Shown here in pieces: positions 2,436 through 29,250 of a stretch of 64,000 nucleotides of DNA. Positions within the stretch are counted from its first letter, which is position 1. Every line of letters begins with the position of its first letter. Both the position numbers and the translations under genes were made by a program. The notes under the pieces are model-generated. The model was not told where the DNA came from and ran no database searches. It saw nothing but the letters and a program-made list of their open reading frames with translations. The stretch is from positions 868,001 to 932,000 of the forward strand of contig NZ_NEVU01000003.1 in NCBI RefSeq assembly GCF_002261355.1, written 5' to 3'. The DNA is from Bordetella genomosp. 12 (GTDB taxonomy: Bacteria; Pseudomonadota; Gammaproteobacteria; Burkholderiales; Burkholderiaceae_B).

Positions 2436-3956
2436 ATGCCTTTTTTGGACTGGGTGAACAAAAACAGCGCGAAGGACGCGGCAGGTGCCGTGCCCTATCA
2501 TCTGCTGCGCAAAGAAGCTGCCTATGGCGACGTAGACTCTGAGAACCTGATTATCCAAGGCGACAATCTGCTGGCTCTGAAAGCCTTGCTGCCGTTTTAT
2601 GCTGGCCGCGTAAAGTGCATCTTCATCGACCCGCCCTACAACACCAAAAGCGCCTTCGAGCACTACGACGACAGGCTGGAACACAGCCAGTGGCTATCCA
2701 TGATGTATCCGCGTCTGGTGTTGTTACGCGAGCTTCTTGCCGAAGACGGCAGCATCTGGGTCACCATTGATGACAATGAAGCACATTACCTCAAGGTGCT
2801 GATGGATGAGGTGTTTGGGCGGAAGAACTTCATAGCTAATGTAGCTTGGCAAAAAAAGTATGCCGTGAAAAGTGACTCGGAATTTCTCTCTGAGTCCCAT
2901 GATCATGTGCTTCTCTACGGAAAGAGCAGAGGATCCACGAGGATCTACCGCCTTCCCCGCACTGCGGCACAAGATGCTCGATACAAGAACCCCGATAATG
3001 ATCCGCGCGGGCCTTGGACATCCGGACCGTTACAGCGTAACGAGGCGAGAGACTACGCCATTTATCCAATTATCAGCCCAGCAACCGGCAAAGCGCATAT
3101 GCCTCCCAAAGGGACAAGCTGGCGCTTCACGAAGGAGAAAATGGAAGAACTGATAGCCGAGAACCGAATCTCTTTTGGTGCACATGGAAACAACGTACCG
3201 CGCCTCAAACGCTTTCTTTCAGAAGTAGCTGAAGCTGTGCCTGCAACGACATGGTGGGACTACTCCGATGCAGGTCACAACGACGAGGCCCGTCGTGAAG
3301 CCAAAATCCTTCAAGATGACGATGACCTTTTCGGTACTCCAAAGCCCGAGAGGCTGCTCCAAAAAATCCTCACTCTCTCCTCTCAACCAACAGACCTCGT
3401 CCTTGACTCCTTCCTGGGCTCCGGCACGACTGCTGCCGTGGCCCACAAAATGGGGCGGCGCTATATCGGCATAGAAATGGGCGAACACGCCCGCACGCAC
3501 TGCCTGCCCCGTCTGCAAAAAGTTATCGACGGCGAACAAGGCGGCATCAGTAAGGCTGAGAACTGGCAAGGCGGCGGCGGGTTCTCCTTCCTTACCGTGG
3601 GCGAACCCGCTTTTGACGAGAATGGTCGCCTGAACAAACAGATCAAATTCCCTACGCTCGCCGCCTATATCTGGCATGTGGAAACCGGCGTGCCCAGCCA
3701 ACAGGAGTTCAACAGTCCTTTCCTAGGCATCCACGACGGAAAAGCGTATTTCCTGCTTTACAACGGCATTCTTGGCGACCGGCGGCCTGATGGCGGCAAC
3801 GTGCTGACTAGCGCCGTACTCGCGCACTTACAGACGCTCTGCCCAGACCCTCTGTCTTCTGTCATTTATGGGGAAACGACACGACTGGGCCCTGCCCGCC
3901 TGGCTGCGGAGGACATCATCTTCAAACAGATTCCCTACGATGTGGCGATGCGGTAA
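2436..3956 (+). CDS. mod: Type III restriction-modification system methyltransferase (Mod)
   Basis: The product is a 506-residue site-specific adenine-N6 DNA methyltransferase of the beta group. Catalytic motif IV, DPPY, is at residues 65-68 (FIDPPYNTKS), and the AdoMet-binding motif I, FLGSGTT, is at 326-332 after VLDS, which is the beta-class order. The region between them (about 140-320) is the probable target-recognition segment. The C-terminal part matches Mod proteins that pair with a Res helicase-nuclease. The gene is immediately followed by res (9 bases from the stop to the chosen ATG). It is on the plus strand, against the flanking minus-strand element genes, and looks less GC-rich than the chromosome, which suggests a separately acquired cassette. 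The recognition site cannot be read from the sequence. Confidence 0.95.
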   Translation: MPFLDWVNKNSAKDAAGAVPYHLLRKEAAYGDVDSENLIIQGDNLLALKALLPFYAGRVKCIFIDPPYNTKSAFEHYDDRLEHSQWLSMMYPRLVLLRELLAEDGSIWVTIDDNEAHYLKVLMDEVFGRKNFIANVAWQKKYAVKSDSEFLSESHDHVLLYGKSRGSTRIYRLPRTAAQDARYKNPDNDPRGPWTSGPLQRNEARDYAIYPIISPATGKAHMPPKGTSWRFTKEKMEELIAENRISFGAHGNNVPRLKRFLSEVAEAVPATTWWDYSDAGHNDEARREAKILQDDDDLFGTPKPERLLQKILTLSSQPTDLVLDSFLGSGTTAAVAHKMGRRYIGIEMGEHARTHCLPRLQKVIDGEQGGISKAENWQGGGGFSFLTVGEPAFDENGRLNKQIKFPTLAAYIWHVETGVPSQQEFNSPFLGIHDGKAYFLLYNGILGDRRPDGGNVLTSAVLAHLQTLCPDPLSSVIYGETTRLGPARLAAEDIIFKQIPYDVAMR

Positions 3957-24814: not shown

Positions 24815-24904
24815 GGAAGCGTGGCCGAGCGGTTGAAGGCACCGGTCTTGAAAACCGGCAAGGGTTTATACCCTTCGTGGGTTCGAATCCCACCGCTTCC
24901 GCCA
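24815..24904 (+). tRNA. serT: tRNA-Ser(UGA)
   Basis: This is a complete 90-nt type II tRNA with CCA encoded. The acceptor is GGAAGCG with CGCTTCC, the anticodon loop CTTGAAA gives UGA, the long variable arm is AAGGGTTTATACCCTT, and the T loop is GTTCGAATC. It is transcribed divergently from the quinone oxidoreductase and lies 60 bases before the intron-containing tRNA-Leu. Confidence 0.96.
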
Positions 24905-24964: not shown

Positions 24965-25274
24965 GCCCGAGTGGTGAAATCGGTAGACACAAGGGACTTG
25001 AATAATTTGAGCCCTCCGGGGGAAACCCCAGAGGTGAAGCCCGTCAAATTCGGTGAACGCCCTGGATGCCCCGGCATCCGCGCCAACGCCGAGCCAAGCC
25101 CAGGCCCCGGCCCGGGAAGGTGTAGAGAGCAGACGGCGGGCACCTACGGCCACCAGGCTAGGGTGAAGGCGTGCTCCAGACCACGAACAGCCTCGGCGCT
25201 GGCGGCGAAAGCCGAAGTGGTAAGAAAATCCCTCGCCGCAAGGCGTGCCGGTTCGATTCCGGCCTCGGGCACCA
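24965..25274 (+). tRNA. leuZ: tRNA-Leu(UAA) interrupted by a group I intron
   Basis: The two exons are 24965-24999 and 25225-25274. Joined, they give an 85-nt type II leucine tRNA with acceptor GCCCGAG / CTCGGGC and CCA encoded at 25272-25274. The D arm has GAAATCGGTAGACAC, the anticodon stem is AGGGA / TCCCT, the anticodon loop CTTAAAA gives UAA, and the T loop is GTTCGATTC. The interruption falls after U34, the first base of the anticodon. This is the same site as the well-known cyanobacterial tRNA-Leu(UAA) intron. A simple tRNA scan may miss or truncate this gene. Confidence 0.9.
25000..25224 (+). ncRNA. Group I self-splicing intron in tRNA-Leu(UAA)
   Basis: This 225-nt intron carries group I landmarks. 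The 5' site has exon CUU ending in U; the internal guide GAG (25009-25011) gives a U-G wobble at the splice site. The Q element is GCCGAGCCAAGCC (about 25088-25100). The R element is GTGTAGAGAGCAGACGG (about 25120-25136), and the S element holds TGCTC (25172-25176), which pairs with GAGCA (25127-25131) to form P7. The intron ends in G at 25224. The start (AATAATTTGAGCC) and the GAGCCAAGCC block resemble the cyanobacterial tRNA-Leu intron as I remember it. No endonuclease gene is present. The exact fold and subgroup (probably IC3) are inferred. Confidence 0.88.
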
Positions 25275-25462: not shown

Positions 25463-28015
25463 TCAAAACCTGCCGCGCAGCGTCAATCGCACATTGCGCG
25501 GTTCGCCGTAGTAATTCCCCAGGGTGGAGCTGCCCACCGTGCGGTAGTACCACTTGTCAAAGAGGTTATCGACGTTCAGCGCCACGGTCCAGTTGCGATT
25601 GACGCGATACTCGGTCATCAGGTTCCACACGGCGTAGCCGCCCTGCGTATAGTCAAACGGCACATTGCCGCCCGTCCAGTTCTGCGCCGCCTCATTCCAG
25701 CTGGCTGCCGTCCCCGACACATACTGTTTGCTGTTGAGGGTGACACCGGCTCCGACTTTCCACGCCGACGCCTGGCCGGGCAATTGCCACGTACCGAAAA
25801 GCTTCAAAGAATGCTTGGGCGTGATCGTGCTGAACACCGCGTCCTGGGTTTTATCCTGATTATGGTTATAGGTATACCCGGCATAGATGTTCACGCCGCG
25901 GGCGATTTCGCCACTGACCTCGAGCTCCACCCCCTCGCTGACGACCTTGCCGGCATTGAGGTAGCAGCAAGCGCCTGCGAACAGGGTCTCACTTGCAGGA
26001 TAGCGGCTGTCACGCACGGCCCTATCCTTTTGAACGATGCGATAGAGCGCGACCGAGGTGCTCAATTTGCCGTCCAGCAAGTCGCCCTTCACACCCACTT
26101 CGGTGTTGCTGCCATGCATGGGGTCCAGACCGGTGCCGGGCGCCGGGCCCGACCGGTAATAGGCCTGCGGATTGAAGATTTCCGCATAGCTCGCGTAGCC
26201 CGTCCATTCCGGCGTGAAGTCATACAGCACGCCGCCAAAAGGCACGACCTGCGTAGGCTCACTGTATCGGGTGGCGCTCGCGACCCGCCAGGTATCGGTC
26301 ATCTGCCAGCTGTTATCCAGATAGGTGCTGTACACCTGATTGAACTTGTACTTGTTGGCGCGGGCTCCGACAATCACCTTGGTGTTGTCCGTGACTTCCA
26401 TCCTCAACGTGCCGTAGATGCCGTACTGTCTGGTGTCGTTGGGCTCATAACTGCGAAACAGCTGCCCACGGCTCAGATCGCCCGAGACATAAGGCGTCGA
26501 ACCAATGTCGAACAAGTCGGCCTGCTGTCCCGTGGCGCGTTGCACGACATAGCTCTGCCATTTGCTCTTGATGTCCTGCATGTCCGCGCCGATCAGGACC
26601 TCATGGGTACGCCCCCCCAGATCGAAGGCGCCGCTGAGGTTGATATCCAGCATGAGCTGACGATTCCAGCTGTGCTGATCGGAACCGACCCAGCGCGAGC
26701 CCTTGAGTGTCACCGGATTGACGGCGCCCGACACATAACCGCCATTGACGTCACGGTTTTCCTCCGTATAGCTGGCATTGGCGCGCAAGGTCCAGCGCGG
26801 GGCCAGATGCCAGCTCAGTTTCGCGAACACCTCGTCGGAGGTCGTGTCCTCAAATGCCCACGGCGCCGTCAATGCCGTATTACGCGACAACCCCAGGTCA
26901 GCGCCGTTGCTATATCGCGGAAAGCCTTGCGGCGTGCCTTGTTCCTTGATCCGCTGGTGCCGCCCCCCGACGGCCAGTACGGCGTCCGGGCCGAGGTCGG
27001 CCTCCAGCACGCCGTAGAAGGTGGGCTTCTCGCTGGCGCGGCGGTCGGTGAAATACTTGCGGTCTTCATAGACCACGACGCCTCGCCCCCGCAGCTTGCC
27101 CTCAAACGCCAGCGGGCCGGACGCATCGACTTCCGTGCGGTAGTTGTCCCAACGGCCGGCGCTCGCGGTGAAATTGAACTGGGGCGTGGCCGTCGGCATC
27201 TTGCGCACCAGATTCACCGCGCCGCCCGGGTTGCCCGTGCCGTTGATCAGGCCGGCCGCGCCACGCAGCACCTCGACACGGTCAAACTCCGCCATGTCAT
27301 AGGAAATGAAGGTGTAGTTTCCGCTGGAGGTCGACATCGGCGCGCCGCCGTCGAGCTGCACGCTGTCGATGGCAAAGCCGCGCGAATAGATATCCGTCAG
27401 GCGATGGCCCGAGTCCTGCACGGTCAAACCCGTCATCTGGCCCGCGGCCTGACCCAGGTCGGTGAGGTTCTGATCTTCCATGCGCTGCTTGGTCAGAACG
27501 GACACCGACTGCGGAATCTCGCGCAGGCCCTGCGCGGTTTTGCCTAAGGTGATGGCATCGCTGGTATAGGAGCCCGTGCCTTCGGTTTCTCCCACGCGTT
27601 GGGCCTCCACGCGCACCGCCCGCAGAGAATAGACGTCTTCCTGGCCCTGCGCTGACGGCAGCGACAAGGAGGCGGTCTTTCCATTCCAACGCACGGTAAT
27701 ACCCGTACCATGGAGCAACCGCGCCAGCGCCTGTTCCGGGGTCAGCGCACCCGACACCGCCGGAGCGTTCAGGCCGGCCACCGTCTCGGGGAGATAGTAG
27801 ATCTGGATGTCGGTCTGCTGGCCCAACTGCAGCAGGGCCGAGTTCAGGGACTGGGCCGGGATGTTGATGTGCACGGCATCCGTGCTTTGTGCGTAGCTGA
27901 TATCGGGCGAAAGGCCAAAGGTCAGCGCGAGCGAAATCGCCAATACATTCAGGTTCAAGCCGAACCGCTTGCCGCGCAAGGCAGGCGAAGTGTGCTTAGT
28001 GATGAGAGGGTTCAC
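25463..28015 (-). CDS. TonB-dependent siderophore receptor with signalling domain (set 2)
   Basis: This outer-membrane ferric-siderophore receptor has 850 residues from GTG 28015. The order is: signal peptide (about 1-43, ALTFGLSPDISYAQS), STN signalling domain (about 45-115, INIPAQSLNSALLQLGQQ), plug (about 170-290, with GLREIPQSVSVLTKQRMEDQ and a VEVLRGAAGLINGTGNPGG block), and barrel ending LTLRGRF. The frame extends to another GTG at 28096, but GTG 28015 places the signal peptide near the N-terminus; neither has a strong ribosome site. The FecR gene ends about 240 bases upstream; a Fur-like box lies between. Ligand unknown. Confidence 0.93.
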   Translation of the reverse strand: MNPLITKHTSPALRGKRFGLNLNVLAISLALTFGLSPDISYAQSTDAVHINIPAQSLNSALLQLGQQTDIQIYYLPETVAGLNAPAVSGALTPEQALARLLHGTGITVRWNGKTASLSLPSAQGQEDVYSLRAVRVEAQRVGETEGTGSYTSDAITLGKTAQGLREIPQSVSVLTKQRMEDQNLTDLGQAAGQMTGLTVQDSGHRLTDIYSRGFAIDSVQLDGGAPMSTSSGNYTFISYDMAEFDRVEVLRGAAGLINGTGNPGGAVNLVRKMPTATPQFNFTASAGRWDNYRTEVDASGPLAFEGKLRGRGVVVYEDRKYFTDRRASEKPTFYGVLEADLGPDAVLAVGGRHQRIKEQGTPQGFPRYSNGADLGLSRNTALTAPWAFEDTTSDEVFAKLSWHLAPRWTLRANASYTEENRDVNGGYVSGAVNPVTLKGSRWVGSDQHSWNRQLMLDINLSGAFDLGGRTHEVLIGADMQDIKSKWQSYVVQRATGQQADLFDIGSTPYVSGDLSRGQLFRSYEPNDTRQYGIYGTLRMEVTDNTKVIVGARANKYKFNQVYSTYLDNSWQMTDTWRVASATRYSEPTQVVPFGGVLYDFTPEWTGYASYAEIFNPQAYYRSGPAPGTGLDPMHGSNTEVGVKGDLLDGKLSTSVALYRIVQKDRAVRDSRYPASETLFAGACCYLNAGKVVSEGVELEVSGEIARGVNIYAGYTYNHNQDKTQDAVFSTITPKHSLKLFGTWQLPGQASAWKVGAGVTLNSKQYVSGTAASWNEAAQNWTGGNVPFDYTQGGYAVWNLMTEYRVNRNWTVALNVDNLFDKWYYRTVGSSTLGNYYGEPRNVRLTLRGRF

Positions 28016-28202
28016 CGGACGTTCTCTAGATAATGAAAGCGGCGCATGCGCGCCAAACCCTTTGGCCAAAGGTTCCTTGCAACCTGCATCACTCACGATG
28101 AAAGGCAGGCCGTCATTAATAAAGAGAGTTCTGCGCCCTCAACCCCGTAAAGAATCCGGCAGAAAATTTGAAATAAAATGTTTCTGCGATTAATGCTGAC
28201 AC

Positions 28203-28254: not shown

Positions 28255-29250
28255 TCAACGGGGAACGATCTCGCTGCTGCCGTCGGGCAACCTTCGCACC
28301 GCGACATGGGCCAGGGCGGGCAGCACCTCGAGAATGGCCTCAGGATCATCGACACTGAACACCCCTGTCACGCGCAATGCCTGCAAGCCGGGATGATGCA
28401 GACGAACGGGCCGGACGCGATAGCGATTCATTTCGGTGACGATGGTTGCCAAAGGCGCAGCGTCAAAGACGATCTTGCCCTGCCGCCACGCGGTCAGCGC
28501 CCCGACATCCGCCTTGGACACCCCCGACACGCTATCCGTCCCGTCAACTTGCACGGACTGCAGTGCGACGAGCCGGCGTGTCTCGCGATGCCACCATGCC
28601 CCCCCCGTGACCTCTACCGATCCCGACTCCACGGCGACGGACACGCGCTCGGCGCTGCGCCGCACGTTGAATCGGGTCCCGGTGACCGTCACCGTGGCTG
28701 CAGCGGCCTGTACCACGAAGGGGCGCTGCGGTGCCGACGCAATGGCAAAGAAGGCCTCACCCTGCTCCAGCACCACGCGCCGTTCGGATGCATAGAACGC
28801 GACGACAACGACACTGTCCGTGTTGAGCGTGAGGAGGGAGCCGTCAGGCAATGCCACCTCGCGGCGCTCGCCGCGCTGGCTGGCGTAACGCTCGGAGAAT
28901 TGCGGAGCTCCGAACCAGCGCTCGGGCCCCAATGCGACGGTCGCCACGGCGGCGCAACAGGCCGCCCCGACGCCAAGCGCCAGTATCCGGCGGCGGCCCG
29001 CAAATGCCGCGGTTGGCCGTGCCTGCCCACGCGCCAGAATGCCCGCAAAAACCTGATCGGGCGTGGCCTCGGCCACGCGCCAGACACGCAGCATGCCCTG
29101 ATAGGCCTGTTCATGCCGAGGGTCGGCGGCCCGCCATGACTCGAAACGCTGGCGCTCATCCGGCGTCATGAGTCCCCCGCTTTCGCGGGTAAACCAATGC
29201 GCGGCGGCGGCGCCGGGATCCTCGGGAATGTTTGAGTCTTGGGTGGTCAT
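28255..29250 (-). CDS. FecR-family signal transducer (set 2)
   Basis: This 331-residue inner-membrane anti-sigma/activator protein has a cytoplasmic part with DPGAAAAHWFTRESGGLMTPDE in pieces (about 11-32) and WRAADPRHEQAYQGMLRVW (about 39-57). A membrane segment lies at about 87-107 (ILALGVGAACCAAVATVALG). The periplasmic FecR domain follows (GERREVALPDGSLLTLNTDS and TVTGTRFNV). It is on the same strand as the sigma gene, about 80 bases downstream of it. The order sigma-FecR-receptor matches the other three sets. The start is ATG 29250. Confidence 0.92.
   Translation of the reverse strand: MTTQDSNIPEDPGAAAAHWFTRESGGLMTPDERQRFESWRAADPRHEQAYQGMLRVWRVAEATPDQVFAGILARGQARPTAAFAGRRRILALGVGAACCAAVATVALGPERWFGAPQFSERYASQRGERREVALPDGSLLTLNTDSVVVVAFYASERRVVLEQGEAFFAIASAPQRPFVVQAAAATVTVTGTRFNVRRSAERVSVAVESGSVEVTGGAWWHRETRRLVALQSVQVDGTDSVSGVSKADVGALTAWRQGKIVFDAAPLATIVTEMNRYRVRPVRLHHPGLQALRVTGVFSVDDPEAILEVLPALAHVAVRRLPDGSSEIVPR

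Follow-up and report, generated by a model that had tools for sequence, protein, structure and literature searches.

The only tRNA-Leu(UAA) gene detected in a Bordetella genome carries a compact group I intron, with sister introns in tRNA-Leu(CAA) that have a C-G splice-site pair

The cyanobacterial tRNA-Leu(UAA) intron is inserted after U34, at the U34/A35 site, and its guide pairs with an exon CUU. The intron described here occupies the same site and pairs with the same exon triplet; it lies in a Bordetella chromosome, within the 64-kb stretch of DNA that we analysed (the window). Both introns are small and share their host tRNA, but they differ in the phylum of the host and in the triplet that forms helix P7. 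The Azoarcus intron is, like the one in the window, a proteobacterial tRNA intron, about 200 nt long and with a similar J6/7-P7-P3 block, but its host is a different tRNA, in which it follows base 36. In 2002 Vepritskiy et al. (J Bacteriol) reportedly described an intron in the tRNA-Leu(UAA) of a gammaproteobacterium from the deep subsurface. That intron is apparently of the same kind and in the same tRNA, in a host of another class, so that introns of the window's kind are already in print. The window gene thus belongs to a known kind of intron.

Bacterial group I introns occur mostly in tRNA and rRNA genes (PMC3984707). Those in tRNA genes are described, in the part of the source cited, as mostly cyanobacterial, with few in alpha- and betaproteobacteria and most of them at position 37/38 (PMC4033280), which is at odds with the 34/35 site of the window intron. 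Insertion in the UAA anticodon is given for the cyanobacterial tRNA-Leu intron (PMC5733544), the Azoarcus group IC3 intron sits in tRNA-Ile(CAU) (PMC3984707), and the tRNA-Ile2 genes of Acidovorax and Burkholderia carry group I introns (PMC8450103). The latter are betaproteobacterial and, like the window intron, were missed by tRNA finders, but they interrupt a different tRNA (PMC8450103). In titles and abstract openings of the openly licensed literature we found no account of a Bordetella tRNA group I intron, and in that literature none of betaproteobacterial tRNA-Leu group I introns.

The last exon base before a group I intron is stated to be virtually always U and exceptionally C (PMC4227781). 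A 2025 database required this U, rejecting 16,427 hits without it, and an excerpt of its description calls the U-G pair at the splice site completely conserved (PMC11835236). The Bacillus cereus group offers a natural exception in its group B IStrons, for which there is experimental evidence of splicing after G; these elements are transposon-linked and reside in other genes, and their U-G pair is shifted by one base pair, whereas the tRNA-Leu(CAA) introns described below have a C-G pair in place (PMC4227781).

As a whole, we consider the following reading very likely: a compact, presumably self-splicing group I intron interrupts, at the U34/A35 boundary, the only tRNA-Leu(UAA) gene found in this genome, and is of a kind that has probably spread sporadically as whole genes and has a sister lineage in tRNA-Leu(CAA) with a C-G splice-site pair.

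Anatomy and fold of the window intron

The features of the locus are collected in Table 1. A first-pass annotation, made from the letters of the window, had read 24965-25274 as a tRNA-Leu(UAA) gene from which 225 bases are removed after U34, and this reading held. The joined exons (24965-24999 and 25225-25274) form an 85-base tRNA with CCA that folds well (z -3.1). G025, a genome from the same family, has an intronless tRNA-Leu(UAA) with which they agree at 85/85 bases; with that of another genome (G024) they agree at 84/85. Because of the identity with the G025 gene, both splice sites are fixed without an intron model, and the group I-like ends noted earlier, U24999 before the intron and G25224 as its last base, agree with the exon match. 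The positions given there for the guide GAG and for the P7 strands also proved exact on reading the sequence. Recent derivation of the window gene from a tRNA-Leu(CAA) by one change was considered and rejected: the match to intronless CAA genes from this family is 78-80 of 85 bases, against 85 and 84 to the UAA genes of G025 and G024.

Table 1. Positions of the split tRNA-Leu(UAA) gene, its intron helices and its upstream neighbour in the window
Feature	Position	Strand	Remark
tRNA-Ser(UGA) gene, intronless here; upstream neighbour, marks the conserved locus	24815..24904	+	Ser-Leu order same in relatives
tRNA-Leu(UAA) 5' exon, 35 nt, ends CTT; U34 (first anticodon base) = 24999	24965..24999	+	
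Group I intron of 225 nt ending in G; no room for a homing endonuclease gene	25000..25224	+	
Internal guide sequence GAG; forms P1 with the exon triplet CUU, the 5' splice site lying at the U34-G25009 wobble	25009..25011	+	
P3 5' strand CCCGUC, partner 25135-25140	25040..25045	+	Paired in 53/53, invariant
P7 5' strand GAGCA (guanosine-binding helix)	25127..25131	+	GCA opposite TGC
P3 3' strand GGCGGG	25135..25140	+	
P8 5' strand CACC, partner 25162-25165	25141..25144	+	
P8 3' strand GGUG	25162..25165	+	
P7 3' strand UGCUC (TGCTC in DNA)	25172..25176	+	
Terminal intron guanosine (omega-G), 3' splice site	25224	+	Fixed by exon match
tRNA-Leu(UAA) 3' exon, 50 nt, begins A35, CCA encoded	25225..25274	+	

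To describe the fold, we aligned 53 of the 119 introns of the clade defined below (alignment A1; 31 UAA and 22 CAA, picked for diversity and with <91% likeness). RNAalifold on this alignment gave P1, P2, P3, P4, P5, P6, P8 and P9-type helices, the helix names being assigned by us. Before the pair test, two short RNAalifold helices that conflicted with P7 were removed and P7 was added by hand. Double-sided changes were present in 29 of the 63 pairs of the 53-row alignment, and paired cells reached 95.6%, versus 87.9% in shuffles (none of 500 as high) and 28-45% when the partners were slid. The double changes sit in P2, outer P5, P6, P8 and the P9-type helix, with one pair each in P4 and the anticodon stem. 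P3 is invariant, and the changes in P1 and P7 are confined to one strand, which leaves these three helices without covariation inside the clade.

For this reason P7 was tested across tRNA families, at 228 distinct sites (176 parsed and 52 not, the latter being 50 sites from viral contigs plus L038 and L097). The triplet faced its complementary partner at 118/119 sites with GCA/TGC, 55/56 with CTA/TAG and 40/42 with CTT/AAG. Rarer triplets behaved likewise (CTC/GAG 2/3, CTG/CAG 2/2, TCA/TGA 1/1), and one site had the wobble combination GTA/TGC. The partner motif was not found at four of the 228 sites with other triplets and at five misses.

The core columns are invariant across the 53 diverse sequences of A1, as are the guide GAG (53/53 rows), the GAAA loop of P2 and the terminal guanosine, for which the parser had required G. 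The splice-site pair is U-G in 31 rows and C-G in 22; in the window it is U-G (U24999-G25009). The window intron therefore has the conserved P3-P4-P5-P6-P7-P8 core with pseudoknotted P3/P7, the U-G wobble at the 5' splice site in P1 and the omega-G (G25224) by which group I introns are recognised. Its P5 and P6 are short. Subgroup IC3 comprises small tRNA introns with a GAAA-capped P2 and no P5abc, and by resemblance the window intron may belong there. Sequence comparison confirms it as a real group I intron, chance resemblance being excluded by full-length relatives in a DNA search (E 7e-139 and weaker) and by the covariation.

Once transcribed, the intron would fold into the P3-P8 core and a P2 capped by its GAAA loop. 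The guide GAG would pair with exon CUU and place U34 in the U-G wobble, and a free guanosine bound in P7 would then cut after U34. U34 would in turn attack after the omega-G (25224), joining the exons and completing the anticodon UAA. The sister lineage occupies the same site of tRNA-Leu(CAA), with C-G as the splice-site pair. Self-splicing of the window intron is what its conserved anatomy predicts.

Standard annotation misses this gene. ARAGORN found three tRNAs in the window, and Rfam at gathering thresholds returned the same three only; the tRNA-Leu(UAA) at 24965-25274 was absent from both, so the genome appears to be without a UUA-reading tRNA. An E-value search gave a match of the intron to RF00028 with 35.3 bits (E 1.8e-7 for 441 bases; E 4.3e-7 over the whole genome), below the gathering score of 50. 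The first-pass annotation had proposed a covariance search and named a score below group I thresholds as evidence against its reading; by that wording the 35.3 bits would count against it. As a control, RF00028 genome searches gave matches in 4 of 14 control genomes, two passing the cut-off. A single model such as RF00028 has been called unlikely to capture group I diversity, in the part of the source cited (PMC6125680). The window gene is an example of a tRNA invisible to these tools at their standard settings.

Copy number, distribution and history

The host genome (G000) comprises 4.5 Mb in 3 contigs, with a completeness of 99.99. A DNA search hit three places in it, one of them UAA, and an exact pattern for intronless tRNA-Leu(UAA) had no match anywhere in the genome. 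Among 59 RF00005 matches we fetched the 12 long ones outside the window locus and its Ser neighbour; the leucine tRNAs among these had the anticodons UAG (one), CAG (three), GAG (one) and CAA (one, intronless). The genome also carries one intron-bearing tRNA-Leu(CAA). A second UAA tRNA was thus sought by DNA search, intronless pattern and RF00005 inventory and rejected. To this extent the earlier suggestion of a sole tRNA-Leu(UAA) gene in a probable Alcaligenaceae chromosome, with a group I intron in its anticodon loop, is borne out.

Among 61 relatives, 11 had a full-length UAA intron match. Judged by a single exact pattern, intronless UAA genes that are intact were present in 0/11 of these, versus pattern matches in 45/50 of the others. 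Two pattern matches in intron genomes were discarded: that in G030 is a broken 5' half without a tRNA-Leu call by ARAGORN, and that in G043 is the intron gene itself, whose intron begins AAAATT. UUA makes up 40 of the 17,446 codons in 46 rough window ORFs and is present in 25 of them. Reading these codons would require splicing in this host. Among 50 named genomes with a UAA intron, 16 also matched the intronless UAA pattern, counting matches intact or not, and so the need for splicing is not general; this check covered 50 of the 63 listed loci.

How widely such introns occur was examined with an exact 20-base P7-P3 piece as query, which matched at least 118 stretches of named genomes. Parsing required a 5-bp anticodon stem, U33, C or U before the intron, G at the intron end, an ARAGORN tRNA with the anticodon in question and at least three exon-guide pairs. 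Under these rules 101 stretches were new loci (67 UAA, 34 CAA), and the rest of the 118 matches listed comprised 14 repeat loci, two off the script pattern (L067, L137) and one unparsed (L097). By record title, 48 of the 101 new loci among the matches listed were from Betaproteobacteria (16 Alcaligenaceae, 10 Burkholderiaceae, 10 Comamonadaceae and others) and 41 from Gammaproteobacteria (17 Lysobacterales, 5 Pseudomonadaceae and others). Ten more had no named class, one was from Sphingobium and one from a "Mycobacterium" on a 4.8 kb metagenome contig. In an even draw of 399 genomes of the order (completeness >=90), a joint exon-intron pattern matched 15, with the UAA type in 14, the CAA type in three and both in two. 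The expectation that a leucine-tRNA intron would be exceptional in such a chromosome, implied in the first-pass annotation, was not supported by the matches to the 20-base piece. One Burkholderiales locus (L154) holds two intron-bearing tRNA-Leu genes of different subfamilies, a CAA gene with P7 GCA and a UAA gene with P7 CTA.

In a tree of 161 introns, with long branches and unsettled bootstraps, the 119 introns with a GCA P7 formed one clade (100/97). Outside it lay the tRNA-Leu(UAA) introns whose P7 triplets differ, as well as those of tRNA-Ser(UGA) and Arg(CCU) and the CAU-type ones, of which two came from viral contigs. On this tree the window intron is a member of a clade of beta- and gammaproteobacterial introns; it groups with introns of G014, Stutzerimonas and Pseudomonas (95/80). 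The label "cyanobacterial-type" given to it earlier fits the insertion site; by sequence the intron sits in a proteobacterial clade of its own, in a tree of non-cyanobacterial introns.

At the locus itself, the upstream DNA and the tRNA-Ser(UGA) gene are common to G014, G002, G005, G001, G009 and others. Intron-bearing tRNA-Leu(UAA) genes follow the Ser gene after 60-83 bases in G000, G014 and G002, and intronless ones after 2-11 bases in G005, G001 and G009. Beyond the 3' end of the window gene, the first 2.2 kb had no match in the stretches of 18 relatives, over the length that these cover; tRNA genes that receive islands commonly have variable 3' flanks. Further downstream, the translations of 25463-28096 and 28255-29250 (minus strand) look by eye like a TonB-dependent receptor and a FecR-like regulator. 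In two relatives, G007 (L017/L364) and G027 (L037/L359), a separate group I intron interrupts the tRNA-Ser(UGA) after U34, and the tRNA-Leu(UAA) next to it is intronless.

Three other accounts of the window gene can be weighed against these data. Presence of the intron in the genus ancestor, with precise deletion in some of its descendants, would explain the Ser-Leu locus that G000, G014 and G002 share with the intronless G001, G005 and G009. We nevertheless regard such vertical inheritance as improbable: the intronless tRNA bodies of the latter three match the window's at only 70-72 of 85 bases, a difference that deletion of an intron could not make, and the introns of five species of the genus (UAA) are rejected as one clade (p-AU 0.008). 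Moreover, in G030 (L303, L362) a broken tRNA-Leu(UAA) 5' half, ending near the anticodon loop and resembling by eye the type of the intronless locus, lies 160 bases before the intron-bearing gene. Recent transfer from a cyanobacterium would account for the shared tRNA and the shared site, with the UAA anticodon as given in PMC5733544. We give it almost no credence, since the GCA introns form one clade (100/97, in a tree without cyanobacterial introns) and the nearest intron by identity, at 94%, is that of G014 in the same genus. That the copy is a decayed relic, no longer spliced while another tRNA reads UUA, would suit its score below the Rfam gathering threshold and the 16/50 UAA-intron genomes with an additional intronless match. 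It too is very hard to sustain, given perfect joined exons, a core invariant in 53 diverse sequences with covarying helices, UUA codons in use and no other UAA tRNA found in G000.

Because one conserved locus holds tRNA bodies that differ from each other, some with the intron and some lacking it, and the five-species clade is rejected, we favour exchange of whole genes: such genes were probably exchanged at this locus within the genus, and whole-gene replacement probably proceeded through integrating elements. On synteny and tree together, intron-bearing tRNA genes have probably spread sporadically among beta- and gammaproteobacteria, as whole genes. A swap of whole tRNA genes at the same locus in one genus would be clean material for studying how tRNA introns travel.

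Sister introns in tRNA-Leu(CAA)

The second intron of the host genome (L002 / L033 / L054) interrupts a tRNA-Leu(CAA) gene outside the window (C1:1476128-1476443, minus strand). It lies inside an island of about 9.8 kb with an integrase-like gene (by eye) and an att-like repeat near 1482194. An intact intronless tRNA-Leu(CAA) sits 3.6 kb away (C1:1472399-1472483), on the border of this island, which makes the intron-bearing copy redundant in this genome. In total we parsed 40 CAA introns, from 39 genomes. Their 5' exon ends CUC, and the script picked GAG as the guide in 40/40 of them and in 76/79 UAA introns (three UAA introns were read as GGG). Since base 34 is the anticodon's wobble position and also the base at the splice site, CAA introns face the guide GAG with C-G. 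This pair replaces U-G in all 40, where the parser rule forces G opposite C34, and the independent support is the invariance of GAG in 53/53 alignment rows. Among the 22 CAA introns that were aligned, the core does not vary.

These introns may be dying, or spliced elsewhere, a possibility that we rate as unlikely. It would agree with the coexistence of an intronless CAA match in G000, G016, G027 and G067, with the description of the U-G pair as completely conserved (PMC11835236) and with a further CAA-like locus (L097) whose anticodon stem is mismatched and which stayed unparsed. Against it stand the invariant guide and core, and the finding that joining after C34 gives an exact copy of one of 20 intronless CAA genes in 15/40. 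In addition, the exact intronless CAA pattern was matched in only 4/39 CAA-intron genomes (34 of the 39 without stated completeness), versus 48/56 relatives without the intron. With 35/39 hosts thus lacking an intronless match, C-G splicing probably works. Two other cutting sites were rejected by reasoning: a cut following A35 would either call for a 3' cut behind A instead of G or leave an 8-base loop, and one following U33 would leave a 6-base loop.

In the free tree, two UAA introns (L014, L149) were nested within the CAA clade. Constraining the 40 CAA introns to one clade was not rejected (p-AU 0.686) and raised the log-likelihood by 16, so that several independent U-to-C switches need not be invoked and one suffices. 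We lean towards the view that this lineage splices in living cells at C-G and arose from the UAA family through a change of base 34. A G:U pair at the P5 edge of J4/5 is present in 40/40 CAA introns versus 5/75 readable UAA introns (four were unreadable). J4/5 is the receptor of the splice-site wobble, and the added G-U suggests a remodelled receptor. If the CAA introns have a single origin, its association with C-G counts as one event, a lead and not a proof.

No description of the CAA-intron family, nor any account of an intron in the CAA isoacceptor, was found among the matches listed from the openly licensed literature, and the family is probably a new variant. As the U-G pair is treated as absolute, families with C-G are filtered out of databases by design. 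A C-G splice-site mutant has reportedly been made in the laboratory by ribozyme chemists; if our reading is true, nature runs that mutant, and one C/U change at base 34 alters both codon reading and splice-site chemistry. The CAA sisters therefore matter most here: if spliced, they are a natural test of the need for the wobble and of adaptation in J4/5. Protection of tRNA-Leu(CAA) by the intron against integrating islands was considered and rejected on account of G013 (L310), where an att-like 3' fragment (positions 33-75, 100%) lies about 28 kb downstream of the intron-bearing CAA gene.

Apparent introns on viral contigs and plasmids

Apparent group I introns in tRNA genes were also seen on IMG/VR contigs classed as viral (L179-L297; for example L232, L242, L231, L221 and L252). 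Their hosts are tRNA-Arg(UCU), Asn(GUU), Lys, Thr and Leu, and some of the splice-site parses are rough. A 2014 review places every phage intron observed in a protein gene (PMC3984707).

Among plasmids, 1287 records matched, 1266 of them with one place over >=80% of the query. Nearly all of these matches were at 60-80% identity, and they came mostly from Escherichia, Klebsiella, Salmonella and Acinetobacter. In one example, pCTX-M3 (L298, ~3001-3248), a complete but unannotated tRNA-Leu(UAA) gene contains a group I intron of 213 nt; it is flanked by a gene for a hypothetical protein and an AAA-ATPase gene next to aac(3)-IId.
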